This document shows, in pieces, positions 19,901-51,044 of a DNA stretch of 64,000 nucleotides (positions are counted from its first letter, which is position 1; the number at the start of each line of letters is the position of its first letter). Origin of the DNA: Branchiostoma floridae (Eukaryota; Chordata; Leptocardii; Amphioxiformes; Branchiostomatidae); contig NC_049988.1 in NCBI RefSeq assembly GCF_000003815.2, positions 5,632,744-5,696,743 on the forward strand, in the 5' to 3' direction. The position numbers and the translations under genes are program-made. The notes below the pieces were generated by a model that had not been told where the DNA came from, searched no databases, and worked only from the letters and a program-made list of their open reading frames with translations.

Positions 19901-22900
19901 AACCCTGACACAGCACCGTTTGGTACCCCACAGTCACAAACGAGTCTCATCATAACATCGTCAGTTGGTCAAAGTCAGCGTTGTTCTGCTGCCCTGAGCC
20001 AGGATGTGTGACAGCCTTCAGCTCAGCCAACAAGCTAGAAGACGTTGGAGAACACTTTAAAGAACTGGAGCGGGAAATCCAACGTTACATACATTGTACA
20101 ACAGAATACACAAGCAGTGGGCTCAAGCTGTGACTGGTAAAGCTCATGGCTAGGGGTGGGTACCGGTACGGAAAATTCAGGTCCAGGTCCGGCTCAGGTC
20201 TAGGTTTGGATCTGAACCCGGACCTGATTCATTATGTGAAAACTTGTGAATGGACCATACGCAAAACAATGGTCCATTTTGCTGCAAAAAAAAACTGTAT
20301 TGTGTAGTATTCGACTCCCACTGATGTTGTAAAAATCCTACAAGGGTAGGTACGATTGACTGTAAATGATGGTAAAATTACTATAGAGTGTACTCTGCTT
20401 TGCTCTTGTTATTTGCCTTGACCGATAACCCCCCAAACGTGTGAATGCCTGATCATATAATCAGTTCCTTTTACAATCGGTCCAACATCCGGTCCACCGA
20501 ATTTTTTCAGGTCCGGTTTTTCTGGACCGGTCCGATGAGAAAAACCGGTTTTGTACCGGTACCCAGCCCTACTCATGGCCCTGGCCTAGCCTCACAGTCA
20601 CAAGGAGAAGAATCCGGATTGGGCGTCCTACCAAGTTGTCAATGAAGGCTGGGCAATCCGGACTAGGAAATGCGGCCAACGGATGTCAGATAAGATGAAA
20701 ACTTAGGCCTATCTGACTGACATTTTCAATTGGGGGCTAGGTCTGGGCAGAAAGCTGGTGCTGTGCAAGTGGCCCACGAGATGTGCACAGCACGTTAGGC
20801 AATCTGATGGCAAGCGGTTGTTTTAGCCCAGCGAGTGGCACACGGCCAAGCAGATTACAAGCTATTACAAACTTTCAGCAGCACGAAGACAGCAAGAAAG
20901 CACAGAATTTGTGGTCACTGACATGGAAGCGATAGATGAGGAAAGCAAGTGGCATGCAGGCGCTGCGAAAGACAGTGTATACTTTAATTCAAGTATTGAC
21001 TACAGTCATCCTGTCATGTTTGAAGACATAAACTTGTGCAAACTCCGGCTAAAACCAAAGGTCCCAAATCAATAAAATTAAAGCAACTGAAGTGCATATC
21101 AGATCATTTCCATTTACCCATTACAGGTTCTACGACAAGGAAAGTCTCTTTCATACAGGCATTAGAGAACATCCTATCCACATGTACATGTGCAAGTTGA
21201 TTTTTTGTAATTTGACAAAGTTTTGTAACATGATTTTTACAACTGTGTAAAAACTCTGTACCAAACATGTGAATTTTTAGACCTAGCCACAATCGTAATC
21301 TCTTACCCTTTGCAGGTAAAAACTTACATCAGACCCAGCTTATTGTGCCAGTCTAAGAAAACTGAAAGTGTGCATTTGTGAATATGCATTTCAACAGTGC
21401 GTTTTAAGTATTTTGCAGACAGTGTGCTCCATTGTAATAGGGTTCTATATGTAGGTTTCTCATAAACGTAATGTTTCTAGTCTAACCTTATGGTGATGAA
21501 TAAATGAACAGTCAGGCATACTTAGTCTAACAAACCAATGGTATTCTTTTACACATCGTATTTAATTGTTAATAACTAAAATTCTTTGTTAGGGTCATGT
21601 TTCTATGTTGTAGATTGCCTATCATTGTATGCGGTCACTCATGTGGCCTGCAGTTCAGCAAATAGTATGTGGAGTATACTGATAACCCCCATGTAGATCC
21701 TTTTTCATTATGTATCACATAGGGAAAGCACACTTTGTAAGGGACTTAAACTAATTGACGTCTTAGAGATACTGAGATGTGTAAAAGCAGCTTAATTCCA
21801 TTTCACATATCCTTATATGCCCCATACAGAGCCCAAATGAATAGCAGTTAATAGGTATAGCTTTTTTTGACAGTTAAGAATTGTTCCTATACAGAAACAC
21901 AAATAAATGACATAACTTACCCCATATTGAGCACTTACAGAGCAACAAATGCGGGTAAAAACCAGCATAATTCATTTTCAAGTAGCCTTATATCCCCCAT
22001 ACAGAGCCCCGATAATTACTTGCAATTAGTTGAAGCATTTTTGACAATTAACCAGTGATCCTACACAGGGACACCAAAAAGTTGCCGTCCATTACCCCGT
22101 AGTGAGCAGTTATTACTTGTTTTAATATAGTCAAAAACCTGGAAAATCCCCATAAAGACCCCCCACTCACGGCTCGTGGTATACATGGCCCAATTAGACG
22201 ACGCTTGATTTTCAATTAGTAGATATTCCTCTCTCCAGTAAAGGTAAAACCATTCATTTAAATTGCTGGGTGTTGGAGAACAAGCCCCTTAAAGATCACA
22301 GAAATTCAGAGAGTTGAAAATCGTGTTTTCATTGGTTCTGGTAACCCCCTGTAACACCCTCTTAATTTCAATACTTCATCTTCAAATTTTTATCAGTAAA
22401 ACTTAAGAACACATGAAATATGGGAATATAAAAGTTTTTGTCATATCTTAATCAGAAGTATCAGAATAGCCATCGCAATTTCAGTAATTTTCAGTCATCA
22501 ATAGTTTGATTTTGGAGGGTCTCAGAGGGGGGCCCCAGAACGCCATAACGAAAAATAGCTGGAGGGTTTTAATCATATGGCTGTTCATAGTTCCCCATAC
22601 CTATCACACAAAAAAAGTTTGAGTTGATTTGGCCGACCCCCATCTTCCGACCTCTGCCTGGTTTTCTCCTGCAATGACTCTTAAGACGGTTAAAATCAAC
22701 AGGCCATTGAAAGGTTACAATAGATGCATTAACAGTGTAGCACAGCTGAACATTATATTGTGCATAGCTTCGATATTAGTTTATAACTGAGGATTTTAAT
22801 CAGACATGTCCTGTATATCATATCTTCAGTTAGAAACTTTCCCACGCGATCGAATCCTCTTTTTTCTTGTCTCCGATACAGTTGGATTTTTGTTCTTGGA

Positions 22901-25900
22901 GGAGACCAAAGGGCGCGGCCGCAAGGGGGACCAGATAACTACCGCGGAAGAGATTAATCTAAGGCAGGTTTCAGGATAGTCTCTTTCCAAATCATTATTG
23001 ATTTGCCCTACAAGTACTTTCGTAGATTTGACTATGGATGCGAGGTCTACAAAAGACTGGATAATAAACATGTCACAACCAGCCTCCGAAACGTAAGCAG
23101 TCTAGTCCACGCGTCGTCGAATCTGCGAAATAGCCTATCGCCGCTATATCATGCCAATGATAAGATATGTAATATTCTCATTTCTTTGCTTTTCTCCACA
23201 CGGACAATTTTCCAATCCATTGGTGAGATAATGTCCTAATTCATACGGTCTAGGGTAAGCGAAAACACGACCGTAACCTCGTGATTATGAGAGTCTTAAG
23301 CTATTTTCTACCCATTTGGAGTAATTAGGCATGAGCCTCTATACGCATGTTATATTTATCATATATGTGATGCGCTAGTTTCAGTTCATTTTTGTGCTGA
23401 TGAGAAAATGTTTGTTGAAAAGAAGCATTTAACATATGGCTGGTTCTATTTCCTCGTCTATGGTGCACATTCAGATCGACCGATTGAGAAATCTTCTGTG
23501 CATGTTGAGTCTACGTAAACCTGTTGTACCTGGTTACCTGACAGACTAACAACAAAAAACTGCCGACCCTAGCCATTTTTAGAAAGAGAATTACTAACTT
23601 CCAGATCTAATTTTTTTCAGGACTGTAATTGGAATCATAACATCAGTTTTTCTAAGCTTTAGTAACGTTCCAGTGTTAACAAACAGATATTTGCTACGCT
23701 GTAGCTAAAAGCGTCTTTTGATGTAGAGTCTTCGGGTCCGACCTAAGGAGAGATGGTGCAGGAGAACAATTCCAAGATGGCACGGCTACAGTGGAAAACT
23801 ACGGGGCAATGACGAATGAGCACTCGGTACACATGATCTTAATTCATTGACATCAGAGATATCTGTTCCAGATTTTTAAAAAGTCCTGTCCTGGTGGTAC
23901 ATTCATGATTTGGTTTGTCTTTTATTGGCCTTTATATGGCATCATCTCTATAGCACAATGTTAAATTTGTATTATGTGTATTCTGCCATGCCAGATTAAA
24001 TTCAATTTTTTAGTCACGGGTGGTATGATACAAAAAGGACGCAGAAAGGGAAGAAGAAAGACAGATTTCACTCCTAAACATATCACGTTTATTCCTGTGG
24101 TATAATGTTAGACCTGTTGAAAATATTTGCACCTAGACATAGCATCAATACAGCATTTTCCAGCCATGATCATATTAAAAATAAATTCAACTTTATGGAT
24201 TGTCCAACTTATGATAGAGAGAGACAAAAATCTTTACAGTCTATTGAATGTAAGTCTGATACAATGTTACCACATTCCATGACGGAAATGTTTGATATGT
24301 TACTATCATTGTCCTTTTGATATATCTGCCTATGTCGCGATCGGTCAATTCATATACAACTCTTTTAAAAAACGAAACAACTTCATACTGTCCTGAAGCA
24401 GAACATAAAGCTAGCCTGATTGTTTGTGCCGTTACCATCGTAAAATAGTCTCTTAGATTTCTAGATATTAGCAACTCATGTAAATGTTCTGTAGGTATGA
24501 TATAAGTTGCTACACATTGTATCATTTACAGTTGTCGTGCAATAAAATGCAATAAAATAAAGCTCTATAGTGTTTTCCAGCCTCCTGGCGACGCAGACAG
24601 CAGCAGTGACGTCCAAGGAAAGCTTCAAGACATGGGCTCAACACTTGCTGGATACCAACGTATGGACGAAGGTGCTGGGTCTGAAGGTAAGAATGTAGGA
24701 TTTCTTTCATTAGGTTTCATAACAAGATAGCTTATTCCAAGGCAACATAAGCCACTTCCGGGCACTGGCGTATCGCTCATTGGAGCTTCTGTTTATTCCA
24801 GAAACATCCAGTTTAGGTAAAATCGACTCCCTTATTACTTCCATGAAAATAAACGTATTGTTTTGGCCATACTATTGTGGTTCTTGGCAGTGCCCGAGGT
24901 TATAGATTCATTATTTATCTTAATAGATTTAAAAAAATTAAAAATGGTTTGCTAGGGGTTTTGGTAGGTTGGTACTGGATGGCTGGGTAAGTGATTATAA
25001 TGACAATGTAATCACTCACCCAGCTATTAGAGGAGTTTGGGGCCACTGTTTGTTGACCTTTGTGCTCTGTATAGCTGATTGGTATATCTATCAAATGCAT
25101 TGTTGCAAAATTTAGGGTCTTATTTGGTTGTCACGGGTCATTCTCAAAAGTAGGCCAGTTTTTGCGTTTGACGAAAATTGTGAATTTCAGCCATGTTCAA
25201 AGTACTACATGTGACAAAGTGAATCAACTTCTTATCAAAGGAAGATCTATGTATTACCTATTTAATACATGCTTGAAGAGTTTTAGATCGTGATGTTTAG
25301 TCACGTTGTTGTCCCTGAAAGTAGGCCCCCTTTTCTCGTTTGGCGAAAATTGTGAATTTTGGCGAAAATTGTGAATTTTAGCCATTTTAAAGTGCTTTAT
25401 GTGACAAAGTAAATTAGAATTCTGATTCCACTTCTTGTCAAAGGGAGACCTAGGTATTGCCTGTCTAATACATGATTGCAGAGTTTTGCCTCGTGAAATG
25501 TAGTCACGTGGTTGTCACTAACAGTAGGTCATTTTTTGCATTTGGCGAACTTTTAGCCATGTTTAAAATACTCTACATGACAATGTAAAAAGTCTAAGTT
25601 AACTTTTTATCAAAGGTAAATGTAGACAAGGCCTATATGATAAATGTTTATAGAGTTTCAGATTGTGACGTTTAATTACTTGGTTGTGCCTGAAAGTAGG
25701 TCACTTTTTTGCACTACTCATATGAAAATTGTAAACTTAAATAGCTGCATTCGAAGTACCCTACTTAGCAAAGTGGAATAGAATTATGAGTAAACGTTTT
25801 GTCAAATGTATTGCCTATCAAATTAATTATTGTATAGTTTTGGATCATGACCTTGGTTGTCCCTAGAAGTAGACAGTCTGCTCGTAACTAGAAATTGCCA

Positions 25901-28900
25901 TTTAGGACTGTACTTGAAGCTGCTGAATTGTGGGACTGAAATATTTTACTGGCTGAGTGACTGGCTCTGTTTTAAATTACCTTGTATGTTAAGTGGATGA
26001 TAGTAATGCTTTTGGTCGACTTTTGTTGCGATCCAGTTGTTCCTCAAAGAACGGTATATTCTGCATTCTATTCAGTACTCACTAACTCACTCACTCATCC
26101 TCTTGCACGTGGTGCGTAAAGCCGACTGTGTGGACTAGGGTTCTCCACCTTCCTTTGTTCGATGCTTCTTGCTTTGCCTTGAGGAGTGTGATGTTACTGC
26201 AAGTCACGGGACACGACTTTCAGCCAGCGGCTGCGAGGCACCCGCCGTGGTCGCCGCCAGCCTGCCTGCTTGGGGTTGAAGTCTAGCAGGGCTCTGGTGG
26301 GATGCTCTGGAGGGAGGCGTAGGACGTGGCCATACCAGCGGACCCGTCTCATGGCCGCAAGGCTAGATGCAGGAGATTGTCCGGTCAGCTCCCGGAGCTC
26401 AATGTTGCGCACGTGCTCGTGCCAACGGGTGCCTGTGATCCTCCTATGGGCTCTATTGTCAAAACCATCGAGGCGGGCTGCCAAGGTGTTACTCGCTATT
26501 TATGATTTCATAAAGACGTGAATTGTCACCCTGAAAATTAGTGAAATATATTGACCAGCTCATCTTTCGACTATATGTGGCCCTAGACATTGTGTATCAA
26601 AGGACGGCGAGCCAGAGGTTTACAAAACCCCTTCATGATGGGTGGTTTTCTAACTCATACTGCCCCATAACTTCTTACTGTGTCCGAAGAGATGTCTCTG
26701 CTAACTATTTCTCATCACTGGCAGTTGAACGTCTTAAGACTCCAGATTGATGGTGATTGTAATGGACAGGACCCTGCTGTAATACAATCCCCCCACAGCC
26801 ACATTCAGGAGGAAATCATGAATGAAGTCCAGCTACATTTTCATGCCATCCTGTCATGATAAAATCTTTGTGACTTGGAAAAGAGAGACTGGTATCGTAC
26901 TTCTCAGGTCAATTTGTGAGCAGATTCAGATGTAACCTCTATAACTGACCGTCGACGCAAGTCTGCATTTATGTCAAAAATTGAAAATACTTGAGTTTTT
27001 GCCATTGATCCAAGTAGACATCTTGTGCGAGGGTTGTGAACCAGAGTATGCTCTGAGACGTACATCTTTATGTGTATTAGTCGCATTTTCAGATGTTTAT
27101 TTTTATTCCTAGAATTAAAGATAACGTTACATATATTACGTATTTGGTTTTGAAAGATCTGAAACGTTATAAACTTGAAGTGTTCTTATTCAGGCTTAAA
27201 GAAATGCTGTTAGAAGACTCTGATATTTGGGGCAGATGACGTTTGGAAAGTTTGTTTTTGCTAACATTTTACAATTTCAAATTTTAAACGCTTAACAATG
27301 TCAATGAGTACTGGATTGGCACTACAATGACTGATAGTAAATTTAAAGTGTTTTATCAAAAATTGGTGTTGCATGACCTCTGTTACAATTGTCTTATAAG
27401 TAGTGATATGTAATACATGATATCAAATATTGTTTCAGCTACGTTCTGTAATGCGTATCTAAAGGGACACTCACTAGAATTCATTTGATAGATATAAATG
27501 TGGTCTACTTTCAGGGACAACCACGGGACTAAAATCACTACTTGAAACTCTACAAGCATTAATTAAATAGGCAATACATGGATCTTTCTTTGACGAGAAG
27601 TTGAATCAGAATTATAATTTGCCTTGTCATGTAGAGTACTTTGAACATGGCTAAAATTAACAAGTTTCGCCAAATGCAAAAAAGCGGCCAATTTCAGCGA
27701 CAACCACGTCACTACATTTCACGACTCAAAACTCTGCAATTATTTATGAGATAGGCAATACCTAGAAAAGAAGTGTAATCAGACTTCTAATTCACTTTGT
27801 CACATATAGCACTTGGAAAATGGCTAAAATTCACAATTTTCGCCAAACGCAAAAAGGTGGCCTACTTTCAGGGACAACCGCGCGGCCTGAATTTGAGGAT
27901 GACCGCATGACAACCAAATAAGAAACTAAATTTTGCAACAATGCTTTTGATATTTATACCAATCATCTATACAGGGTACAAATTTTAAGTGAAAAAATTA
28001 CCAGAGCGGCACTTATAACGTTACAAAGTTGGACAAGAAATTACGTTATTTTGAAGCTTGAAACATTTTATTGTTTTGATGCTACCCAAGAACTCGATTT
28101 TATCTCGTTGGAAATTTCACAACAATTTCTAAAAAGCCAAAATATTGGTCTATTCAGATCTTGTTTTGTTTTGACCATACAATAAAAGATGTTGGAGTGA
28201 CAATGCCATAAAGTATGCAGATTTCCATGTTTTTGAGATGCGGAAATCGGGGAAAATGGCCAGAAAACTTTGTTGACTCGTTACCATGGCAACAAGGAGT
28301 TTTGATCTAAAAGAAAGCTATTTTGAGGGGTTGTGGACCAAGTACTATCACTGTGCATTATGCACTATGAACCAAATCTATTTCTTTTACCTTTAACTCG
28401 CGTTCTGAGCAAGCTGTAGTCACGATTTTTGGATGTTAGATATTTTTTGTCCTTAAAAAGAAGTGGCTTGATTTAATTTGCATTCATAATGAGGAAAAGT
28501 TGTATTTTAATTTTGCAAAGTGTCAGGTAATAGCACCTGATGCGCGACGCGTTACGTCACCCTTACGACACCGCGCTACGGAATGTAAACATCGCTTGAC
28601 CACAAACTGCCCTGTTTTCCTTGTGATTAAAAACTGTGACGTAATAAAGTAATAGATTTATTCTGTAACCAATTTGGCCGGACTGGTTAGATCCACTCAC
28701 ACTAGAGGGTCCCCTATTCTTTTTTTTATAATTATGTCTGGTCCTTGTACGTACTCTAGGCGAAGCTCCTGTCAAACACATGATCTCCATTTAACGTCCT
28801 GCCCACGGGGTTTCCTGATATCTATAAGCTGGAACTCAATTTCATCTTAGTGAAGTGAGGAACGTCATTAGCATCTTTCCTAATGGCAAACAATCGGTGA

Positions 28901-31900
28901 CATGACATTATTTTGATACCTACACGACCCCATATTTGAAAGTATTCAATGTCTCTAAAATACACATGCTTTTAATGTCAATAATATCTTCTTCTTCTGA
29001 CTATATACAACTAAAGCATAGCAATATAACTAAGATTGTGCTTTTGAACTTTAGCGGATTCCTGGCCGATGACCCGTCTGATGTGGGACAGGCGAGTGAT
29101 GCTGTCGGCATTACTGTGTGGGCTGCTGGCATTTGTAACAATAGCTGTGGCACAGGTAGAATCACTGCAATTTCTGGTATTTCGTCTTGCTATACCTTTG
29201 GGGATGTATACTAGGTACCTTCCTACCCTTGGTGGTTTATGTGCTGATGTTCGCGTTATATGTTATACCAGTCAACGTTGGAAGCCTATGTAGGATATTG
29301 GAAGCCACCAGTTAAAATCGCGTTATGAACGACATCTTGGATGTAATGAACAGTGTGGATTAAAATTTATACTCTTCATTAAGCAAGTTGTTCAGACAAA
29401 TATTAACCATTTCCAGACTGGGCTTTAGGGGTATTCCTAGATCCTGGGATGGGTGGTCTCATCCCCCCCCCCCTCTTCCCCACCGTAGTTTCAAACAGTA
29501 CATTATCCAAATTTGCCGGGGATGATGTAGTGTCTTATGACTGTAACATTTATATTATTATGACGTTTTGACGCCATCAAGTTGATTATATTGGCAAAAA
29601 CGCAAAAACTTAACAACAAAGAGTGTTTCTTGTCTCCTAAGACTTGTCAATAGGAACAACAATGACTTCAAGATGACGTCACGAAATGACGTCATATGTA
29701 TTTGCTTTTTATCCACCATCGTGGATCATTTCCACGTTTTCAACATATAACCCCAAAGTTCCATGAAAACGGATTAAATCGTTTATATGAATGTTTTTGT
29801 TAGAAAATACCAAATAGTGATGAAATTGAAGTGAAATAACGTGATTATACATATCATCATGGTGAGCTCCGCCAACTTGGACTTTGACCAATTACGTCAC
29901 CAAATTACCATAAATTATAAATATCTTATCATAAGTGCTACATTGAAATATGTTAGAAATTAAAAATATATGAAAAAGTATGTGGTGAATTTTGTAAAGC
30001 ATACCATGACAATACTAAAAGTTAGCATTTCTGACTTAATGTAATGCGAACAAAACTTTCAGGAAAGTCAGTTGGTATTTTTAGCCCCCCGCCCAAGTCT
30101 GGAAAGGGTAAAAGATACATGCGTTTTAGCTTTCAAAAACACACAAACATATTATGTGTAAATGTAATGTACCATTTAACCGGCAAAACTAACTTCCTGG
30201 CTGATTTTTTTTTATTTATGTTACGTTGGTATCATGGTCACTTTCTAAAGATTGTCATATCTCAACGTGGCTAGTTATACTAGTATTTTGATAACCCGGT
30301 ATTTTATCATCTAACATTTGTTTGCCACTCCAGCTTCTACCCCTCCTCCTTGTGTCTAGTTATGAGCACGGCGGGTTCAGTATGGACTCTAGTCAGATCT
30401 CAATTGTGGTATCTGTTCTAGGCGTTGTCGTGATGGTGGATCAGGTAAGTCTATGTCTCGTGACTGATAACTTTGCAAGAAAAGCACAAAAGTAGAAATT
30501 AACGGACTTCTAAAAGTGTCAGCATTTTCACTGTTTATGTTTTAACGACCATCTCTTCTAGGGAATTACCCTGACGCAAAATAACTGTGTATGGGGAAAT
30601 ATTCAAAACATTCGGCTCTGAACGGCAGGTCTGGAATGGGTCGGTTGGTGTTCGGCTGGTGTTCGGCTGGTGTTCGGCACGGTCGGCTAGTGTTCGGGAG
30701 TAAGTCAGCAGTCAAATCAAATCACACATCATAAACACTGCTGACTTACTCCCAGCTTGTTTCCAACTAACCAATGATTCACCCCAAGACCGTAGAAAAA
30801 TCTCTGCTAACTCATTTCCAAGCAAAAAATTATTGCCAGGACGTAGACGAATCACTCCCGAACTTCACACGACCGACATCCAGCCAAAAACAAAAAGAAC
30901 CATAAATACCGTATTGGAGCTATCTGTGATCCAAATGTGATCTCTTGGTGATGTTTACAAAATACAGGAAAGGATAATCTTGATTAAAAACGAAAATGAG
31001 CACTCTTTTGAAAATCGCTGATTATGTCTATTTCAAGTCGAGAGAGGGTCGGCAATCGGGTGGGAATCCGTCATGAGTGATTCGGTAGTCTGCGGCTAAA
31101 GGCCGGCATGGTAGGGAATAGGTTGGACAGCATTCAGGACACAGTTGAGAGTAAGTCATTTACTGGTCGGGAGATGTTCGGGACACGTTTGGCGCTAAAA
31201 AAATAGGCTTGGCCTAAACTGGTCAGACTACTCCCGAACTTCTGCCGACTTCTAGCATTTCCTGATAATAATCTTCATATGCAAACTGGGTGATGGCTTT
31301 CTATTCCAGGTATTTATTGTTCCTTGGCTGACACGGCGGTTCAAATTAACAACATTGTACAAGTTCAGTCTTCTTATATTCGCCTTTGGAGTGATGCTGA
31401 TCCCTCTGATGGCCTCGATGGCTGGTCCTTCGACGGTGATTTCTCCTTTGCCTGCAACGGCTTTAACGCTACCCACCCCACCAAGTCAGTCTCCGAGTCC
31501 CTCATCACAGACCACGCCGAGTGCCCCACCACGCGCAGTCATCGTTCCTTCAGAAACGTATAGTTCCAATTCTCCACCACAAGCCACTGTTGTTCCTGCC
31601 ATAAAACAAGCCAGTTTAACTCCAAAAACTGTAACTACAATCAAACCCATCCCACTCAACCCTAAGCACAACGCCTCCAGCACATCCAGTCCTAAATCTC
31701 AAAGCTGTAGAACGCCTAGTCCTAAACCCCAGATACCCAGCACAACTAATCCTAAACCCCAGACCCCCAGTACACCCGATTCTAAACCTCAGATCCCGAA
31801 CACATCCAGTCCTAAAACCCAGACACCCAGTCCAACGGACCAGTCCCCCGGCATACCCAGTCCAAAGACCCAAATCTCCAGCAAACCCAGTTTAAAACCA

Positions 31901-34900
31901 CAGGTGTCAAGTCCAGCACCACAAGCCCCGGGTTCCGTCTCTGAGGTAACAGACGTTCCTTGTCGGGAACCAAGCTCACCAAGTGCAACTGACAGGCCGG
32001 TTTCTGAAGCTCCTTTCGCGCCTGCACAAATTTCCAGCGTAACTCCACGAGAAAGCTTTCCTACGTCAAATACCGTAAGACTGGTGCCCACCATCCCCCC
32101 ACAAGCATCTCACTCCACTGCACCACTACAGGCCACCGTCATACATGTAGCTACTTTGACACCAACTCAACCTAGGAACAGCACCTCGAAGTCCCCCCAA
32201 GCCTCAAAGTCGCCAATCGAGACTTCCATTGTTCTAAAAAATGTTACATCTCAGCAAGCTTCTAAATCCATGGCGCAAATCGGTTCCAGCCCACCTGATT
32301 CAAGTGATTCAAGGTCCGATGATAAACAAACCCGTCAGCTGGTCGGTCAGTGCAAAATCACCAACGACACAACAACAAGCATGAGAATTCGGATTCCATA
32401 TAATATCTGGGTTACTGTGATCCTTATCAATACCATTGTAGTATTAGGAAGGTGAGCAATACACAAGGTTTTGAATTAGATCTAGTCTTTAATTTGACAC
32501 AAGATAATTCCGAACGTAAGAAAGTAAATGTCGTTGTTGTCATCAGCACCGATTAGTTGTCATCAGCACCGATTACCGTTGAAACGCAATAGTACAGCTA
32601 TTAGTACGATATCTTCCAAAATCTTTGTTTGACACTGCATGACCCTGTGTATAGCCCCGCACTAATCCTGAATTGTTTTCCAACATGAAGTTCTACCGCT
32701 TTTACGGCAGTGATGGTGATGATCGGCAACTCAGCTTTGGTGAGGCATTTTGAATACCACTTGTGTATAACAGCATACTGTGTATACATCCAAGTGTTTT
32801 ATTCAGCCGATATTTCTGTGACTGCCTGTCACTTTTCTAAGGACAATTCTAAGTGGTTCATAATGCACAGTATCGCCACTTACAGATTCGGTCACGCTTC
32901 TAATCGTTTTTCATTCCATTGAAAGTACGTTATTTTAGGATCCCCATCTTATAGCAGCGAGAGTACAATCTGAACCAGTCAGAACCGCAATGAGAAAGGT
33001 GAATAATGTATTGAATAACACACTTCGTTGTGTGCAAATAATCTTGTTATTTTGTGACGTACAAAACTGATGAAATCATCAACGAATGCCTCAAAACTGT
33101 TAAATAAATGTTCTGTTCCTTGAGATACATTTTTATCAACTTGGCAGCAATTGAATCATAGAGAAACAATGTTATATTGCTTCCAACTACCTGTGACATA
33201 ATTTATTTCCACTAGTCTCGAAAATATCATGTATATATGATGTTTAAAAAATCTTAGGATGAAATTGAAAATTGCTTCTGCAAGTCCAAGGGATAACCAG
33301 GTCCAATAACAGTTATCTATTTGAATCTGAGCATTAGTGACTGGATTATAAGAGGTCCTGTCTGTGATAAAATGTCCAATTTGTCTCGACTGCTCCTATA
33401 AAAAGGTCCCAAAATAGTCTTACTCAAATCCTAAACGTCTTCCATAGAGTACTTTATGGAACTAAACTTAATTTAACCAACTTGGTTAGATAGAATTTAA
33501 TTTCATAGCGTAGGTTACAAATAAAAGTACCACAGTACTTCTTGACATAGTGCTGATGTTTGGCTGTGCTTGTAGATGCATTCGTTTTCATATCAGTCAG
33601 AAAAACACCCCTCCACATTTTATGTGATAAAATCCTAGATCTAAATATTGAGTACCCCAACCGAATACCACACCGATCTGCGACCTCTTTACATCAAGGC
33701 CGACGAACTGAGCACACTTGAGAATCCCGGTCCACTGACGCTTACGAAAAAAAACAGCTAGAAGAGCCGGGGCGCATGCATCACAAAGTCAACAATACTA
33801 TCAATATATAGGGGTTGAGGATCCTCCCGAGGTGTATGGTGTCATAACGCCTATTTATTTGCTTATCTCGGCTGTCAGTCACGTGATCCGACCTGATCCG
33901 GACATGCCATCCGCCATAATTGTGTTTCTCCGACGGTAAAGAACGCGTGTGGCTTCTCCCTCACGTTACGTACGATTGTTTACTATATTATTGCCTGTTG
34001 CGGGTCGAAAAGCTGCAAATATGAGATACATTTTGCATATAAACTTAAAATGGTTAATAATCATGAAGTGGAGCACTCAAGAACGTCGTAGATTTTGGAT
34101 TTCGGCAATCAGCCACGGAGATACGAACGTCGAAGCTTGGGGCGCTGACGGGCCAGCCCGCCATGCCGGCCCGCCACTCGCTGTACTATAGTCTCAAGCG
34201 CTATTACGATTTCTCTACTTGGTTGATGAGTAGAGCGAGACGTGACACCCCGAGATATGTTATCACTGTTATCAATTTCTAGGACACTTTTTGGTACTAA
34301 AGTAAGTCAGCAGGGATAGACAAAATGTTCACTAGGTTCCCAAACTGAATTTAGGGGGAAAAGATCTATGGGGAAGAAGACTTAAAAGAAACCAACAGAA
34401 GCATTAAGAAAGAGGCAGGTGCGAGGGCTGGACAAGCTGAAAATGGAGTAACTTGAAGAAGCGAATCGCCTAACACCGAGAAGAAGCTGCAGCGAAAATG
34501 GCGCTGCAACATCTTACTGAGCACCGTATGCAAGAGATCGATTTAGCAGAAGATAAAATGTGCCAATGTGGAAATGACAGGATGTTAGATATAAAAAGTT
34601 AGAAGGCACAGAGTGCTACAACCGAGACAGAAAAGTTGTCGTACTACTAAAACAAAATTGCTGTTAGGGTTCTGTTGGATCTCTGTCGAGATCGATTCTT
34701 GTAACTCCAGAAATTAGTATTTTAGATAATAAAACTAAAATAGTAATCAAAGCTGCGGTAAAACTTTGCTTTACACAAAAAGTTTGCCCTCAGCAATTCG
34801 GGAACTGGAAAAATATGCATTTTAACTGACAAACATTGACCCCGAAACACCACAGCAATATTCTCTACTCAGTACAAAAACTATTGTTGCTGTATTTGAC

Positions 34901-37432
34901 CAAGATGAAGCAAAACTAAACACTGAAACCGGCCCCTGCCTTCATTATATTCTATGGGACGCCGAAATAATGAACACAGAGATGGCGGATGCCCATATTT
35001 GGAAAGCCCCATGACGTCAAGTGAAAGCCAAGAATAATCACCGAATAAAACTACTTGGTGGGGATAGCATCTAAGAAGCTGTACTTAGATGATATGTAAG
35101 TTATCCTACACCATGTATATATAAATGTTCTTTGATGTATTGTCTATGTGTTTGTCAGCAGGGCTAGCCCTTTGTAATAGCTATAGGCTAGTTGGGCAGC
35201 CCTGGCTGTGTGTTGTTCGTAACAGCCAAACCAATAAATAAATAAACTGTTATGTATTAAGTTTGCTATGTCACTCTTGAAATCTGAGTACAGGGACTGG
35301 CTACCTCCGCAAAGATTTCAGATAACTGGCCGCACTACCAGAAACAGTTAGATAGAAGGTGCCCAGCAGCACGAATCAACAGATGTAGGAACTAGCCAAT
35401 GCCGTACATGTGCCAACTGATAAACAAGTATGGTCTTATCTCTGAGTAACTTTTGAACAACTATTTTGACCTGTGAGTTTCTTATAACTGGAATATATGA
35501 TGTATGTACATTAGATTAGGTCATAAAATTATTCAACATATCACACAATCTATCTTCCTAGTTTGTTTCCTGGTTATGACTTTTTGGGACGCTTCATTGC
35601 TCACTGGTCGCTTCTAAAAGTGGTGAGAGGAATGCTTGAGGCAGCTATTATGTATTATGTCACTACCATGCTCCAGAGGAATGTCTTGTTTTTAACTTAT
35701 ATATAATACCGAAGTCAAGTTTTTGTATAACTAATTGTGTAGAATGCTTAGAGTAACTCTTGGTGTACTATGTATAACTACTTATAGTTTGTATATGACT
35801 GTAATTTTTTTTAATCTAGATTATATGTGTCGTTTGTAAATTGGATATATTTCAGTGCAGAAAGAACTCTTTCTATCTATCTATCTATCTATCTTAAACC
35901 AAAGAATGAGCGAAGCGAACCAGGTGGACTTTATGACGTCGTTATAGCATAGGACTAGTCTAGGCGATTTGCCAACTTGAAGTTTAATCGAACCGCAAGA
36001 ACAGTCTAACAAACTGCGTCCAACACGTAACCATCTTGACTTCGTACATACATGAGTTGGCGAGGTGGGAAGGACGCGAATCCGTAGACAGTAGAACCAT
36101 GTACCAAGGGATAGCAAACGGTTAGGCTTTATGACACCATGTCCACTGAGGAACAAGCGGATAATTAACGCTATCATCATATGGCGTATCCAAACCACGA
36201 CACCAGCATACCACTGCCTGTGACCCACTTGTATTGTACCGTTTGCAATTTTGATCAATCAAAAATCAAATTAAATGATATGAATTGCTGTCTGACACTA
36301 TACATGCAAATACAGTTGTTATGTTTTTAAAGGAATACCTTTGGAAAGTTACAGGTGTGCTTTTTGCACCTAAGAAGATTATAGATTTCTTTCTGAAGCC
36401 AGAATTTCTACAGCCAATATTTCGTAACATTGCAGTCTTGACATGTCAAATCTTTTTCAAATATACTCGTTTAGACCTCATAACCTAGAAATATGGACTT
36501 CTGATTGACGTCGTCAGGCTATAAGATGATATAAGATGACACGGTTTGACGGCGTTTATAGTATACAGTATTATTTATAATATATCTAATCTTGCCTTTT
36601 CACAATCACAAAGAAGTAATAAAAATTCCTCTCTGAGTAGATTATTGTTGTTATATTAGCTTAACAGTGTATCTGTTAACTATTTTTGTAATGAATTGTA
36701 CTTCACCATGTGTCTTATTGAAATGTCTTCATTCATTGATAAAACCCAGGAATCGGTGTTGTATTGTGTATTTGAATTTAGATGACAGTATTAATAACGG
36801 ATGAATGAAGTTCCCTTGTGTTAGTAATACATTTGAAACATTCTGTCTTTGTCGTGTCTTTAAAGCCAGCATTTCGCGGGTCCACAAATGGTATCGCCCA
36901 GTCCATGACTGTCTTGGTCCGCCTGTTGGGTCCGCTTGTCTTCGGAAACCTGTTTGCGTGGAGTTCTGACAACGGTAGGGAATTCGAAGTGGACACTTAA
37001 TATGTTAACAAGTCGAATATTTTTCAACTTTAAACATGCAAAAAAGCTGGTTCATTTTCCTGAAAAATCAAATCAAGACGAAATAGTCATGAACGCTTGA
37101 ATGTTTTAATATAGGATTATGACTTTGTCAGCATATGAAGACACATGTTGAATTATTAGAATGCTACGATGATATAACATCTCTCTCAAATTTTCCTATT
37201 CTATTTCTGTTTTCTCTCCACAGGCTTGCCATGGCCTCTGAGCTACCACCTCTCCTTCAACATGGTTGGTCTGCTGAGTCTGCTCGCAGCTTTCCTCTGC
37301 ACCCGCCTGCCAGACTCTATCAACTGTAAGAGAGAGGAGGACTCTCTGCCATCCCAACACATCCAGGATGGGGACCAAGGTTTCTATGAAGACGGAGCAG
37401 AAGATTATTACGCTCAGCAGGCTCTACATTAA
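4891..37432 (+). CDS. MFS transporter, DHA1 / zinc-induced-facilitator-like, 14 visible exons, 5' end missing
   Basis: Spliced gene. Exons are 4891-4922, 5151-5210, 7838-7925, 10601-10672, 17340-17472, 22882-22963, 23727-23826, 24581-24686, 29055-29155, 30334-30444, 31310-32451, 32691-32739, 36866-36974 and 37224-37432. They sum to 2394 nt (797 codons plus TAA), and every junction keeps one frame. Seen: motif A (WGKLADKFGRRP) after the missing TM2, TM3-TM6, a hydrophilic 6-7 loop, TM7-TM12, and antiporter motif C (GPTVGG) in TM5. Family knowledge: motif A and GPxxGG are typical of 12-TM proton-coupled MFS antiporters. The wording GNLGIVKTYLYE in TM4 and FPYLLPC before TM6 resembles plant and fungal ZIFL-type members. 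Substrate is unknown; zinc, organic acid or drug export is only suggested by relatives. The protein should be an integral membrane protein with cytosolic termini. Odd features: a giant TM9-10 loop and one GC-AG intron. Upstream exons encoding TM1-2 were not recognised in 1-4890. The exon structure is inferred from splice signals, without transcripts. Confidence 0.88.
5151..5210 (+). CDS. MFS gene exon b: TM3
   Basis: Acceptor tttgcag, donor gtgagt at 5211. The exon completes the second Arg of motif A and encodes PTLLAGSMTAML followed by TFLMFGF, a hydrophobic helix (TM3). Phase 2 in, phase 2 out. It is separated from the previous exon by a 228-bp intron. Confidence 0.87.
5211..6329. other. 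Intron sequence with unassigned repeat-like DNA
   Basis: Intron between exons b and c. GC-richer than its surroundings at ~5380-5960, with a short palindrome (cctcccgcaagcgggcgg, ~5406) and two related segments ending in ...cacacgta (~6050 and ~6180). No reading frame resembles a protein family. Confidence 0.4.
6330..7235 (+). mobile_element. Decayed LINE reverse transcriptase fragment
   Basis: Pieces of one RT in shifted frames: PVSKILLRILLKR...VDRDLLKN (6355-6440), WRVMERMGFPKYITNSLRQL (about 6537-6595), then PVSFNFYFEAVVRESANLL...LRFADDIALLATSP (about 6680-6830). FADD is the polymerase active-site box. Later stretches on this strand resemble the ST-KKTKVMTE and thumb regions with further frame breaks. 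The segment holding the first catalytic Asp (FIDYSKAFD-type) appears deleted near 6520. Clearly a dead copy. Confidence 0.75.
7236..7837. other. Intron sequence, nothing recognised
   Basis: AT-rich DNA between the RT remnant and exon c. It includes a tail-like aataaagcctgaaaaaa at ~7560, which may be the 3' end of an unidentified retroelement. Confidence 0.35.
7838..7925 (+). CDS. MFS gene exon c: TM4
   Basis: Acceptor ccgtcag, donor gttggt at 7926. The 88 nt complete a Ser codon and encode the TM4 helix AWAVFALFLGGLLRGN, then LGIVKTYLYE. The R/N-G-N-x-G-x-x-K-T block is a recognisable TM4 signature of ZIFL/DHA1-type transporters. It ends in phase 0. Confidence 0.9.
7990..10445 (+). repeat. 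Composite repeat with ~120-130-bp minisatellite units, intronic copy
   Basis: Contains recurring blocks of the type ggactggtctattttgcaa...tttacatggggtgtgctgg...agagtccattcttgc at ~8917, ~9045 and ~9167, and again at ~10295-10440. The flanking parts (~8000-8260: repeated 'ccctggtattacaacc' and 'acagtacaacaaaaagc'; ~8840-8910) also recur in reverse complement at 39690-40965. So the whole is one interspersed repeat family. No transposase is seen. Exon d lies just beyond its right end. Confidence 0.65.
10020..10290 (+). mobile_element. Possible 3' remnant of a LINE
   Basis: Short stretches in two frames read FQGPTLWNELSA and then AAFKNGLTQ. This resembles the 'F-x-G-P-x-x-W-N-x-L-P...FK-x-x-L' end of many LINE polyproteins. 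Very short and frameshifted, so tentative. Confidence 0.4.
10601..10672 (+). CDS. MFS gene exon d: loop 4-5 and TM5 start
   Basis: Acceptor ttctgtag, donor gtgagt at 10673. Twenty-four codons encode VCPEKMHSVAF and then AVVSVASGLAYVV. This is the start of TM5, and the next exon supplies its GPxxGG. Phase 0 at both ends. Confidence 0.88.
10876..11461. mobile_element. TTAA-flanked piggyBac-like MITE, copy 2 (reverse orientation)
   Basis: TTAA at 10876-10879 and 11458-11461. The right end (GACCGGG/TTAA) is preceded by a block whose reverse complement resembles the left part of the element at 1984 (a G-rich run, then aatttcaaa, then a TGACGTCA-rich segment). The left terminus has diverged (ACCCTATATTTAG). 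No coding content. Confidence 0.55.
11462..12226 (+). repeat. Tandem-type low-complexity repeat with GT and TA microsatellites
   Basis: Several imperfect copies of a block 'ataactcaagaag...caaaggtcaagttt...aaatgg...tactaca' (about 11800-12170), with (GT)n at 11680-11700 and 12180-12200 and (TA)n at ~11760-11780. The same block resumes at 16051-16160, beyond the LINE. The LINE therefore jumped into this repeat. Confidence 0.55.
12612..14783 (+). pseudogene. LINE polyprotein, endonuclease and first half of RT, one nonsense codon
   Basis: One frame runs from about 12612 to 14783, interrupted by TAG at 12825-12827. The stop falls exactly where relatives have Trp (F-G-[W]-N-V-R-T), so it is a single-base loss. 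Downstream are the endonuclease motifs S-E-T-R (~12930), G-D-F-N-A-R-V-G (~13260), D-Y-V-I-V (~13470) and S-D-H-R-L (~13545), then a linker. RT motifs follow: G-x-D-G-I-P (~14305), S-L-L-C-I-A-G-K (~14485), Q-C-G-F-R-x-G-R-G (~14575) and the first catalytic block F-V-D-L-T-K-T-F-D. The frame ends at TGA 14781-14783 through a frameshift. Confidence 0.85.
14788..15987 (+). pseudogene. LINE polyprotein, second half of RT plus C2H2 finger
   Basis: Continues the same protein one frame over. GMQARAQENGDASDPF and NGVKQGCVLAPTLFS follow where the preceding frame stops, so a 1-2-nt indel at ~14780-14788 split the gene. It holds the FADD active-site box (15034-15045), the thumb region (K-F-C-Y-L-G-S), the Y-G...W-T block, and a terminal finger CSTC...HSHMRRH (C-x2-C-x12-H-x3-H) ending at TGA. 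Confidence 0.87.
16051..17339. other. Intron sequence with repeat remnant and a hairpin
   Basis: 16051-16200 is the continuation of the repeat split by the LINE. A short imperfect foldback, GGGAGTAAATCAGCAGT with CTGCTGACTCCC, lies at ~16900-16953 and resembles the hairpin at 30696-30753. A G-run is at 16466-16477. No coding similarity. Confidence 0.45.
17340..17472 (+). CDS. MFS gene exon e: motif C, loop 5-6, TM6
   Basis: Acceptor gccatcag, donor gtctgt at 17473. Opens with GPTVGGFLSCPATR, completing antiporter motif C, and continues with FPYLLPC and the TM6 helix (ITSMLVACVGLL). The next exon completes the helix. A gt...ag pair at 17381-17410 encloses exactly ten in-frame codons and is read as coding, because 30 bp is too short for a normal intron and relatives have a loop there. 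Phase 0 in, phase 1 out. Confidence 0.88.
19985..21075 (+). pseudogene. Broken zinc-finger-like protein gene inside the foldback element
   Basis: Fragments on the + strand: CPEPGCVTAFSSANKLED followed by VGEHFKELERE (~19990-20070), then beyond the nested element WAIRTRKCGQRMSDKMKT (~20650), YLTDIFNW, VAHEM (~20770), SDGKRLF, PSEWHTAKQITSYYKLSAARR (~20830-20900) and an acidic tail to ~21075. The C-P-x-P-G-C...F finger and the 'GW-A...FL/LT...KI-x(2)-G...K-x(3)-VA' layout recall multi-copy finger proteins of marine invertebrates. Stops and frameshifts kill it. The original function is unknown to me. Confidence 0.5.
20143..20579. mobile_element. hAT-type MITE with 8-bp target duplication
   Basis: The element (20151-20571, 421 bp) is flanked by CTCATGGC at 20143-20150 and 20572-20579. 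Its ends are TAGGGGTGGGTACCGGTAC and GTACCGGTACCCAGCCCTA, a 19-bp inverted repeat with one mismatch. An 8-bp duplication and TA-G-GG ends are typical of the hAT superfamily. No transposase, so non-autonomous. It interrupts the finger pseudogene. Confidence 0.88.
22882..22963 (+). CDS. MFS gene exon f: end of TM6 and start of central loop
   Basis: Acceptor gatacag. Encodes VGFLFLEETKGRGRK and then GDQITTAEEINL. The FLFLEET ending is the usual cytosolic exit of TM6 in this family. The exon is best ended at AAG before gcaggt (a GC donor), because that donor gives phase 2 and keeps the next exon open. The alternative GT donor at 22968 does not lead to an open frame in the next exon. Confidence 0.8.
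22964..23726 (+). other. Probable GC-AG intron of the MFS gene
   Basis: Donor AAG/gcaggt and acceptor gatgtag. GC-AG introns are a known minor class with a strong AAG before the cut. Only this donor and acceptor pair maintains phase 2 and an open frame across exons f, g and h. Confidence 0.6.
23727..23826 (+). CDS. MFS gene exon g: cytosolic 6-7 loop
   Basis: Acceptor gatgtag, donor gtacac at 23827 (weak). In the frame set by the GC donor upstream it reads VFGSDLRRDGAGEQF, QDGTATVENYGAMTNEHS, with no stop. It is hydrophilic and low in recognisable motifs. The other two frames are closed. Supported by phase continuity on both sides rather than by homology. Confidence 0.7.
24105..24565 (+). 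mobile_element. 5'-truncated LINE, C-terminal scrap
   Basis: The open frame at 24105-24320 contains FMDCPTYDRERQ, which parallels FTMDCPLYDSDR in the LINE at 56414-59627 and the CCHC region of the fragment at 3740-4541. The end (gttgtcgtgcaataaaatgcaataaaataaag) resembles the 3' end of that fragment (ttgttgtgcaataaaac). Only the extreme C-terminus and 3'UTR are present. It ends about 15-20 bp before the acceptor of exon h. Confidence 0.62.
24581..24686 (+). CDS. MFS gene exon h: cytosolic 6-7 loop, continued
   Basis: Acceptor gttttccag, donor gtaaga at 24687. Encodes PPGDADSSSDVQGKL, QDMGSTLAGYQRMDEGAGSE, an acidic, Ser-rich linker. Phase 0 in, phase 1 out. A LINE tail ends only about 20 bp upstream of the acceptor. 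Confidence 0.8.
25065..27980. mobile_element. Foldback-type element with tandem-repeat arms
   Basis: The left arm (25065-25890) has about four ~170-200-bp units of the type 'gtaggcc...tttgcgtttggcgaaaattgtgaattt...agtactct..atgtgacaaagt'. The right arm (~27470-27980) has about three units in reverse complement. Outer edges match too: gctctgtatagctgattggtat versus ataccaatcatctatacaggg. Arms made of subrepeats are typical of foldback (FB-like) elements. The centre (~25900-27460) holds a LINE scrap and no transposase. Target duplication not determined. Confidence 0.6.
26085..26500 (-). mobile_element. LINE C-terminal remnant
   Basis: On the minus strand, 26484 down to ~26100 reads ARLDGFDNRAHRRITGTRW, HVRN..L..LTGQSP, RVRWYGHVLRLP, then HPTRALLDF and GWRRPRRVPRSRW. 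This matches the well-known end of RTE/CR1-type LINE proteins ('RRL-x-WLGHVLRM...GRP-x-x-RW'). A frameshift near 26194 separates it from a final WRTLVHTVGF block. The 3' end is a (TGAG/TCAC)n tail at ~26080-26100. RT is absent. Confidence 0.75.
28000..29054. other. Intron sequence, nothing recognised
   Basis: Intron between exons h and i, right of the foldback element. AT-rich with a GC-rich patch near 28540-28580 (gcgcgacgcgttacgtcac). No protein-like frame and no clear repeat boundaries. Confidence 0.4.
29055..29155 (+). CDS. MFS gene exon i: TM7
   Basis: Acceptor actttag, donor gtagaa at 29156. Encodes ADSWPMTRLMWDRR, then the TM7 helix VMLSALLCGLLAFVTIAVAQ. A charged stretch followed by this helix is the expected start of the second six-helix bundle. 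Phase 1 in, phase 0 out. Confidence 0.88.
29403..30112. mobile_element. TTAA-type piggyBac-like MITE, copy 3
   Basis: The left end CCATTTCCAGAC at 29407 (after TTAA 29403-29406) and the right end GTCTGGAAAGGG ending at 30108 form a 12-bp inverted repeat with one mismatch. The right flanking TTAA has decayed to TAAA. Inside are the C-run (29463-29472), the C-rich right end and TGACGTCA-type palindromes, as in copy 1. Confidence 0.65.
30334..30444 (+). CDS. MFS gene exon j: loop 7-8 and TM8
   Basis: Acceptor cactccag, donor gtaagt at 30445. Thirty-seven codons encode LLPLLLVSSYEHGGFSM, then SSQISIVVSVLGVVVMVDQ (TM8). The EHGGF...I pattern between TM7 and TM8 matches ZIFL/DHA1-like proteins. 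Phase 0 at both ends. Confidence 0.88.
30445..31309. other. Intron with tandem 'gttcggctg' motif and a perfect hairpin
   Basis: A short tandem ggttggtgttcggctg-type repeat is at ~30640-30695. A perfect 17-bp inverted repeat (GGGAGTAAGTCAGCAGT at 30696-30712, its complement at 30737-30753) has a 24-nt spacer. Related gttcggg / cccgaac pieces continue to ~31250, suggesting a decayed inverted-repeat element of roughly 650 bp. Confidence 0.5.
31310..32451 (+). CDS. MFS gene exon k: end of TM8, TM9, mucin-like loop, TM10 start
   Basis: Acceptor attccag, donor gtgagc at 32452. The 1142-nt exon first encodes VFIVPWLTRRFKLTTLYK and TM9 (FSLLIFAFGVMLIPLMASMA). About 325 residues rich in Ser, Thr, Pro, Gln and Lys follow. 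Then YNIWVTVILINTIVVLG begins TM10. The insert holds degenerate ~10-12-residue repeats of the type SPKPQIPST (nt ~31690-31920), five N-x-S/T sequons (NAS, NTS, NST, NVT, NDT) and few Cys. Ordinary family members have a short loop here. The hydrophobic flanks and one open frame argue that the insert is translated. Function unknown. Confidence 0.85.
32691..32739 (+). CDS. MFS gene exon l: TM10, continued
   Basis: Acceptor acatgaag, donor gtgagg at 32740. The 49 nt complete a Ser codon and encode STAFTAVMVMIGNSAL, which matches the family pattern of a TAVM-x(3)-NNS stretch at this point. Chosen over the cag at 32710 because only this acceptor keeps the frame. The acceptor is weak in pyrimidines. 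Phase 2 in, phase 0 out. Confidence 0.8.
32740..36865. other. Large intron with retroelement tails and a (CTAT)n microsatellite
   Basis: Intron between exons l and m. A LINE-like 3' end is at ~35090-35247 (agggctagccctttg... then aataaataaataaa), and a second is possible at ~35570-35870, ending at the (CTAT)n run 35873-35894. Nothing else is convincing on either strand. Confidence 0.45.
36866..36974 (+). CDS. MFS gene exon m: TM11
   Basis: Acceptor ctttaaag, donor gtaggg at 36975. Encodes PAFRGSTNGIAQSMTVLV, then RLLGPLVFGNLFAWSSDN. The R-G-x-x-N-G-x-x-Q-S ... GP...G-x-L-F-A-W-S pattern is the most conserved block of the C-terminal half in ZIFL/DHA1 relatives. Phase 0 in, phase 1 out. Confidence 0.92.
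37224..37432 (+). CDS. MFS gene last exon: TM12, acidic tail, stop TAA
   Basis: Acceptor ctccacag. Encodes GLPWPLSYHLSFNMVG, LLSLLAAFLCTRLPDSIN (TM12), then a ~35-residue hydrophilic tail rich in Asp, Glu and Tyr, ending DYYAQQALH before TAA at 37430-37432. TM12 with the LPxSI ending is the standard C-terminus of this family. The tyrosine and acidic residues could act in trafficking, but that is speculation. Confidence 0.92.
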
Positions 37433-37449
37433 TTCACGTATTATATCAA

Positions 37450-37536
37450 GCATTGTATTAATGAGCAAAATTTTCCAGAACTTGTAGTTATTGTAGCATT
37501 GTATTAATGAGCAAAATTTTCCAGAACTTGTAGTTA
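37450..37536 (+). repeat. 41-bp direct duplication in the 3' UTR
   Basis: Copies at 37450-37490 and 37496-37536 are identical over 41 bp (gcattgtattaatgag...acttgtagtta), separated by 5 bp. They lie 18 bp after the stop codon of the MFS gene, so within the expected 3' UTR. Confidence 0.85.
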
Positions 37537-38145
37537 AGAAATTTAACAGTTTAAAAATACGGTACAAAGTGGCAGCATGGAAGTAAAATTGAAAGAGTAC
37601 ATGCAGATTTAGGAGTGTCAACGAAAATTTATCAATCTCCATAAGAGGTAAACTTTCTGCAAATAACCATTTACTTTAAATTGCACCTCTCTTATATATA
37701 ACAGAGCACCAACAAAACAACTAGATAATGGTTGATAACGTTAAACAAGAGGCAAAATGAGCTGAGAGTGGGTATGTCTGCAAAAGTGTGCAGTTGTTGC
37801 TTCATATCTAAAATGATACACGTCTTTGGTTGTAGCAGTAGAAAGCTAGGAGCTAAGAACTCCCAACGAAACTGCTGAACAATGTAGGACTCCACAAGCA
37901 ATGCTGTGTAGTACGTCATCTAAAAGTACCGCAATTGTTGTGCGCAAGTTATAAAACAATCGAATACAACATTGTTTTCATGTCTTTGATTTTGATCACT
38001 TACCGATCACCTTGACTTCAGCTTCTGTACCGGGATTCCGCAAAAAATTCAGTAAAACTACAAAAAGATCAATTAGAGTACTTTCTAGGTTTACCCTGTA
38101 AATAAGGCCATGCTGATGAATGATATACCTTACACAGTGTTTTCA
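37537..38145. other. Probable 3' UTR and intergenic DNA
   Basis: No clear AATAAA close to the stop was found, so the polyadenylation site is not assigned. No other gene on either strand. Confidence 0.4.
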
Positions 38146-45170: not shown

Positions 45171-45972
45171 CTTGCACCTTAAGCTTGAATCAAAGAACAA
45201 AGGTAACACTGCACCCCACTCCTGGCCTTCGGTTTAGGCTAGCGGTTAGGAGAAGGGCGCATACGGTCAAGAAGATCTCCCGAACAAAACATCCGATTGA
45301 AACGCGGTTTGCATCTTTCTACCAGACACTATGCAACCTTTCGAATGATATAAAATTTGTTGGACCAGAACTTGAACCTTAAGCTTGAATCAAAGAACAA
45401 AGGTAACACTGCACCCCACTCCTGGCCTTCGGTTAAGGCTAGCGGTTAGGACAAGATCGCATACGGTCAAGAATATCTCCCGAACAAAACATCCGATTGA
45501 ATCAGGGTTTGCATCTTTCTACTTGACACAATTCAATCTTTCGAATGATATAAAGTTTGTTGAACCGGAACTTGAACTTAAAGCTTCAATCGCAGAACAA
45601 AGTAACACTGCACCCCACTCCTGGCCTACGGCTAAGGCTCGTGGTTAGGACAAGAGCGCATGCGGTGAAGAATATCTCCCGAACAAAACATCCTATTGAA
45701 ACGCGGTTTGCATCATTCTACCAGACACTATATAATCTTTGGAATGATATAAATTTTGTCGGACAGGAACTTGAACCCTAAGATTGAATCGCAAAACAGA
45801 GGTAACACTGCACCCCACTCCTGGCCTTCGGTTAAGGCTAGCGGTTAGGACAAGGGCGCATACGGTCAAGAATATCTCCCGAACAAAACATGCGATTGAA
45901 AAAAGGTTTGCATCTTTCTACTCCGCACTATGCAACCTTTCGAATAATATAAAGTTTGTCGAACCGGAACTT
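45171..45972 (+). repeat. Satellite subfamily B, ~198-200-bp units
   Basis: Four units with the markers ctgcaccccactcctggcct and gaatatctcccgaacaaaac at ~200-bp steps (45210, 45409, 45608, 45808). Same orientation as subfamily A and recognisably homologous to it (catccgattg, ctttcgaatgatataaa, gaccggaacttgaa). Clearly a separate subfamily. Confidence 0.88.
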
Positions 45973-49402: not shown

Positions 49403-49502
49403 NNNNNNNNNNNNNNNNNNNNNNNNNNNNNNNNNNNNNNNNNNNNNNNNNNNNNNNNNNNNNNNNNNNNNNNNNNNNNNNNNNNNNNNNNNNNNNNNNN
49501 NN
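49403..49502. other. Assembly gap, 100 N
   Basis: Exactly 100 N within satellite D. A fixed-size gap of unknown true length, probably an array collapse. Confidence 0.98.
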
Positions 49503-50944: not shown

Positions 50945-51044
50945 NNNNNNNNNNNNNNNNNNNNNNNNNNNNNNNNNNNNNNNNNNNNNNNNNNNNNNNN
51001 NNNNNNNNNNNNNNNNNNNNNNNNNNNNNNNNNNNNNNNNNNNN
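50945..51044. other. Assembly gap, 100 N
   Basis: Exactly 100 N within satellite D, flanked by aagc and ctatttgggcg. True length unknown. Confidence 0.98.

Follow-up and report, generated by a model that had tools for sequence, protein, structure and literature searches.

How a membrane transporter comes to carry more than three hundred residues of low-complexity sequence between two of its helices is the question raised by a gene of the lancelet Branchiostoma floridae. The gene is encoded on the forward strand in a 64,000-nucleotide stretch of genomic DNA (referred to below as the window; C10:5632744-5696743, contig NC_049988.1), and its product is a protein of the major facilitator superfamily (MFS) in which transmembrane helices (TM) 9 and 10 are separated by a loop of 322 residues. 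An initial annotation, made from the letters of the window, had described the loop as a mucin-like domain of ~325 residues that was newly built into a transporter whose relatives have only a short loop at this place. The transporter and the Ser/Thr/Pro/Gln-rich stretch between TM9 and TM10, the latter within a single exon, are borne out by the analysis presented here. The loop as such is not an innovation of this gene: judging by the paralogous exons, a sequon-bearing enlarged loop 9-10 is a trait of the family, which has been stretched in the present copy, partly by in-frame 30-bp repeats.

The exon encoding TM9, loop 9-10, and TM10

The exon at 31310-32451 (+) is open for 380 codons and has good splice sites on both sides (AG/GTATTT ... 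GGAAG/GTGAGC). TM9, ending in ...LIPLMASMAG, passes directly into the loop, which is followed by TM10 (YNIWVTVILINTIVVLG). The loop consists largely of Ser (61 residues, 18.9%), Pro (59, 18.3%), Thr (42, 13.0%), and Gln (24, 7.5%), with S+T+P making up 50.3% of its 322 residues. It contains five N-X-S/T sequons (NAS, NTS, NST, NVT, and NDT), the number given in the initial annotation, and these are the only ones in the entire 839-residue protein model; none of the 11 Asn residues elsewhere in the protein is part of a sequon. A chance open frame is ruled out by second-order Markov simulations of the insert, none of whose 1000 runs gave as many as 318 open codons (maximum 281); the two other forward frames of the insert contain 12 and 19 stops.

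A part of the loop is repetitive. The DNA at 31720-31830 forms a 30-bp tandem repeat (3.7 copies, 72% match), and the protein contains seven units of the form [SND][PSL]K[PST]Q, spaced by 10, 10, 10, 10, 17, and 10 residues. The span of these units covers 24% of the loop, whereas the remainder is S/T/P-rich with no clear repeat. Thus, the expansion of a 30-33-bp repeat, tentatively proposed as the source of the loop, is detectable but accounts for only a quarter of it. When the anchor codons are left out, the repeat units differ from each other by 0.40, 0.33, and 0.53 at the three codon positions, the third being the highest, and the nonsynonymous divergence (dN) is lower than the synonymous one (dS) in the four computable pairs out of six adjacent ones. 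The open frame, the third-position bias, and the dN/dS relation in the computable pairs all indicate that the insert is translated.

The loop in paralogous genes

The searched genome (513 Mb in 431 contigs) contains at least seven further loci of this family, of which C5 carries three, C4 two, and C7 and C13 a single one each. The TM9-TM10 exon is readable in six of these seven (in the C5 locus at 19.25 Mb, the sequence runs into N just past TM9) and in all six it starts in phase 0 and ends in phase 2, as it does in the present gene. Loop 9-10 comprises 77 residues with 2 sequons in C5c, 77 residues with 3 sequons in C5b, 82 with 3 in C13, 85 with 4 in C4a, 71 with 3 in C4b, and 134 with 6 in C7. 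Since every readable paralogue already has a sequon-bearing loop, the loop of the present gene has been enlarged rather than newly built in, and the assumption that family members have a short loop here finds no support in these paralogues. In contrast to the 322-residue loop, those of the paralogues, with 71-134 residues, have an S+T+P content of 26-38% and lack SPKPQ repeats. These comparisons suggest that the family probably had an enlarged, sequon-bearing loop before its duplications took place and that the present copy is distinguished from the others solely by the loop's size and composition.

The core of the present protein shows 46-49% identity to those of five compared paralogues over 175 aligned residues. 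In an unrooted tree of six genes, long branches lead to the present gene and to C5c, and the genes from C4, C7, and C13 are grouped. The C7 loop (exon near 4714271-4714840, minus strand) has an internal duplication of its own (VSNQTANSSGVTLNF.../VANQTANSSDFTLTS...), indicating that loop growth occurred more than once in this family.

Shortly before TM10, all six readable paralogues have a Cys residue (in GQCRL, GKCRL, or GTCRL) that is also found in the present gene (GQCKITN). Another Cys, in the (S/A)CPA motif of loop 5-6, is present in seven of the eight genes, the eighth (C5b) lying among N at this place; in the corresponding block of plant ZIFL proteins, its position is taken by QPAEK (PMC3041735). 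A disulfide bond between the two cysteines is possible but is a guess.

No second copy of the insert was detected in the genome by protein or DNA searches, of which the latter skips simple repeats and very common words. The sole other protein match, at C7:24336637 (39% identity, query positions 91-146, E 0.95, two stops), is regarded as fortuitous.

Gene model and family assignment

Exons of the gene were found by matching pieces of the window to the paralogues. Sixteen of them, three of which lie upstream of the window, join into a protein of 839 residues with no internal stop and a single stop at the end; all introns are GT-AG, and their phases match. Weak donor sites are seen at the third exon (GTGCTA) and at the exons that end at 7925, 17472, and 22967; these borders are placed by homology and phase. 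The joined protein scores 108.6 bits with the Pfam MFS_1 model against a cut-off of 33.4, whereas the single exon gave no Pfam match, nor did two of the three forward reading frames across 22801-37800, translated with X for stops. MFS motif A is present in loop 2-3 as GKLADKFGRR. The exon-by-exon reading and the paralogue matches fit 12 helices, while a plain hydropathy scan with windows of 19 residues failed to detect TM2 and did not separate TM3 from TM4. Because the 16-exon model is open and matches the MFS, we regard it as an otherwise intact transporter gene that is interrupted by the insert. The features found within the window are listed in Table 1.

Table 1. Parts of the transporter gene located in the window
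Feature	Position	Strand	Basis
WGKLADKFGR(R), MFS motif A between TM2 and TM3	exon 4891-4922	+	
TM3	exon 5151-5210	+	
TM4	exon 7838-7925	+	
TM5	exon 10601-10672	+	
TM5 end, loop 5-6 with paralogue-shared Cys (GGFLSCPATRF), TM6 start	exon 17340-17472	+	
TM6 end and start of central cytosolic loop	exon 22882-22967	+	
Central cytosolic loop 6-7	exon 24581-24686	+	phase-consistent; no clear paralogue match
TM7	exon 29055-29155	+	
Loop 7-8 and TM8	exon 30334-30444	+	
TM8 end/loop 8-9, TM9, giant loop 9-10, TM10 start	exon 31310-32451	+	open frame, paralogue comparison
S/T/P/Q-rich loop 9-10, 322 residues, five sequons	31427-32392	+	composition, sequon count
Seven SPKPQ-type units on a 10-residue lattice (Tandem Repeats Finder [TRF] core 31720-31830)	31688-31918	+	repeat and motif scan
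C-terminal foot of loop, GQCKITNDTTT..., with the Cys common to 6/6 readable paralogue exons	32345-32392	+	
TM10 end (SSTAFTAVMVMIGNSAL)	exon 32691-32739	+	
Loop 10-11 and TM11	exon 36866-36974	+	
TM12, C-terminal tail, stop	last exon 37224-37432	+	

A candidate for a short linker exon near 23750 had no phase-consistent reading by eye and was rejected; the exon ending at 22967 joins the one starting at 24581 in phase without it. The latter exon (24581-24686) encodes YQRM, one of the three Yxx-hydrophobic strings in the protein. It resembles a lysosomal Yxx-hydrophobic sorting signal but was given no weight.

Within the MFS, the relationships of this transporter are distant. With the loop removed, its best NCBIfam model is Tet(A)/(B)/(C) (NF012174), at 76.6 bits against a cut-off of 475; on this score, it is only distantly related to the tetracycline efflux proteins of that group. 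Among solved chains, again with the loop left out, 6s4m of MFSD10 (TETRAN) alone matched at an E value of 1 or below (E 1.9e-5, residues 59-169); this match is weak and involves mainly the N-terminal half. The joined ZIFL motif blocks align with residues 32-211 (E 8.6e-31), 281-377 (6.2e-7), and 728-767 (4.9e-4), all without composition correction.

Five ZIFL signature motifs, three of which are called ZIFL-specific in the source, were taken from PMC3041735. The motif W-G-x(3)-D-[RK]-x-G-R-[RK] is found at position 75 as WGKLADKFGRR. The model has only a relaxed form (...GLAYVVGPTVGG) of the antiporter motif of TM5, S-x(8)-G-x(3)-G-P-x(2)-G-G, and does not contain the loop 8-9 motif [RK]-x(2)-G-P-[IV]-x(3)-R. 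The C-[PS]-G-C motif of the N-terminal cytosolic part, found in 58 of 68 plant ZIFL proteins (PMC3041735), is absent from the model, whose first exon is weakly assigned, and the His motif of loop 6-7, [PQ]-E-[TS]-[LI]-H-x-[HKLRD], found in 61 of the 68 (PMC3041735), gives way to LEETKGR. As four of the five signatures tested are lacking, we consider the gene ZIFL-related but do not file it as ZIFL: the sequences are similar, but the three ZIFL-specific motifs are absent, and the initial assignment is not supported. In plant ZIFL proteins, block 5 ends in HLSGPWL, and none of the listed blocks matches the long loop (PMC3041735).

Several repetitive elements were noted in and around the gene. 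One of its introns contains an apparent non-long-terminal-repeat (non-LTR) retrotransposon at 12828-15984 (+), with endonuclease and reverse transcriptase in two frames. A 708-bp inverted repeat within an intron (18343-19050 and 21958-22665; 99% complementary, arms 2907 bp apart) resembles a young mobile element whose ends are long inverted repeats. Downstream of the gene, a reverse transcriptase fragment at 41255-42295 (+; RVT_1 E 1.4e-14) is followed by large satellite arrays at 43717-56414 and 59623-64000, with periods of about 200, 217, and 427 bp. The 1032-codon frame between the two arrays (56541-59636, minus strand; RVT_1 E 3.4e-38, with a weak endonuclease match below the cut-off) looks like the reverse transcriptase of a non-LTR element.

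Possible roles and origins of the enlarged loop

What such a loop might do is a matter of weighing. We give an even chance to the reading that this gene encodes an intact DHA1/TetA-like, ZIFL-related MFS transporter whose loop 9-10 serves as a disordered, glycosylated shield. The loop would have grown to 322 S/T/P/Q-rich residues partly via in-frame tandem duplication of the 30-bp unit, and it would be disordered, N-glycosylated, and probably also O-glycosylated. The resulting sugar-coated brush may protect the transporter's exposed surface against proteases or hold the transporter within the glycocalyx, while the membrane core would move a small solute, probably by proton antiport.

Several observations weigh against this reading. 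The first exon of the model was assigned by a weak match (29 of a possible 65 score). The sequon number is only mildly above chance for this composition: shuffled loops contain 2.3 sequons on average and at least five in 270 of 5000 cases. The dN/dS signal comes from seven short units chosen by their peptide anchor, a small sample. AlphaFold2, run on the exon alone, assigned a predicted local distance difference test (pLDDT) value of <50 to 293 of the 380 residues and predicted helices only at residues 3-10, 13-37 (TM9), and 364-379 (TM10); being based on a single sequence and having a mean pLDDT of 46.3, this is weak evidence for disorder. The loop is also net basic (29 K+R versus 15 D+E), which is untypical of an external brush, and its S+T content is 32%, with S exceeding T.

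The last two features bear on the term “mucin-like.” Proline-threonine-serine (PTS) domains are defined by S+T of at least 40% per 100 residues; none of the 223 windows of 100 residues in the loop reaches 40%, the maximum being 36%. The published criteria for mucin domains are an extracellular, secreted, or transmembrane protein, at least nine predicted O-glycosites per 50 residues, close to each other, and an excess of T (PMC9209528). By its MFS match, the present protein is a transmembrane one, and its loop has 11-21 S/T per 50 residues, although these are residue counts and not predicted O-glycosites; T, at 42 against 61 S, is not in excess. The net basic charge and the S-over-T bias speak against a classical mucin; given the S excess and the S+T content of the windows, the description as mucin-like holds only in part.

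Comparable features are known from other MFS proteins. MFSD6 belongs to a different MFS family, and CLN7 is reported to carry both of its N-glycosylation sites in loop 9, which is short, in contrast to the five sequons in 322 residues here. N-glycosylation at two sites has been described for CLN7/MFSD8 (PMC12579238). Human MFSD6 is an MFS protein reported to have a mucin domain (PMC9209528); its large extracellular loop is L3 (PMC12911884). In the peptide transporters PepT1 and PepT2 (SLC15), TM9 and TM10 flank a large extracellular insertion, at exactly the same site as here, for which N-glycosylation sites are predicted, and a similarly sized domain is found at the same place in the SLC22 family (PMC4597091). 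The PepT1/PepT2 insertion, however, consists of two folded immunoglobulin-like domains in another MFS family, whereas the loop described here is of low complexity and probably disordered. MFSD1, which has no N-glycans, is guarded from lysosomal proteolysis by its partner GLMP (PMC6819133), a parallel for glycan protection of MFS proteins.

Each element is therefore in print (the TM9-TM10 insertion, N-glycosylation in CLN7, and the mucin domain of MFSD6), while their combination in a ZIFL/TetA-like animal transporter is not among the literature matches listed. No ZIFL/DHA1 protein with such a loop was found among these matches, which come from open-licence papers. The initial statement that no ZIFL/DHA1 protein of this design was known is thus uncontradicted among the listed matches, but in the MFS at large PepT1/PepT2 (PMC4597091) and MFSD6 (PMC9209528) are precedents. 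We regard the protein as an uncommon variant of an established design rather than as a new type.

A possible alternative, nearly as likely as the glycosylated shield, is neutral growth, in which replication slippage enlarged an already variable linker at a tolerant insertion site and the additional 200-250 residues serve no function in themselves. The spread of loop lengths among the paralogues, one with its own internal duplication, and the lack of a second insert copy in the genome searches fit this scenario, and the PepT1/2 site tolerates loss of the whole domain (PMC4597091). However, the 322-codon open frame and the third-position-biased divergence between the repeat units argue against neutral growth, as does the S/T/P richness, which spans the nonrepetitive three quarters of the loop, with S+T of at least 27% in each 100-residue window. 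Capture, in which the transporter acquired a mucin exon or S/T/P-rich exon from another gene by shuffling, is in line with a loop composition sharply unlike that of the rest of the protein. We give it almost no credence: the insert has no intron borders, and at its feet the loop is similar to the shorter loops of the paralogues. Bar one chance-level match, the genome searches return only the insert itself. Growth at the present site, through slippage or unequal exchange, is a better fit than capture.

It is improbable that the insert is, wholly or partly, a hidden or optional intron whose removal from most transcripts leaves a shorter loop. In-frame internal GT-AG pairs do exist, such as 31946-32131 (score 10.9) and 31436-31792 (10.5), but the best internal pair (12.0) breaks the frame, the best in-frame pair scores 10.9, and the twelve in-window introns of the gene all score at least 13.4, with a matrix that was trained on these same introns and favours them. 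Furthermore, the insert is not removed in full by any of the eight top-scoring in-frame pairs listed, of which the largest (31436-32131) has a score of 8.1, and the loops of the six paralogues are open within the same exon. Slighter still is the chance that the loop, instead of being a passive shield, specifically binds or recruits a partner, as proposed for the PepT1/2 domain with trypsin. The shared insertion site (PMC4597091) and the Cys at the loop foot that is common to the paralogues would suit such a role, whereas the low complexity and predicted disorder are unlike the folded immunoglobulin-like domains of PepT1/2, and only the feet of the loop, with no other stretch, are shared with the paralogues.

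A bolder form of the shield reading, which we regard as unlikely, is that the TM9-TM10 junction in this family of animal transporters is a fixed, transport-neutral site, pinned by the conserved Cys pair, that acts as a fast-evolving dock for glycan shields and where one copy acquired a built-in mucin-like domain by repeat expansion. If this were true, the protein would be a transporter bearing its own glycocalyx. The understanding of MFS transport is unchanged by the present loop. If glycosylated as predicted, it would represent a further MFS line with an outer domain at the TM9-TM10 joint, in this case a disordered one, and the loops of 71-322 residues in the seven readable genes offer a series for testing loop length and glycan load against stability, surface life, and transport.

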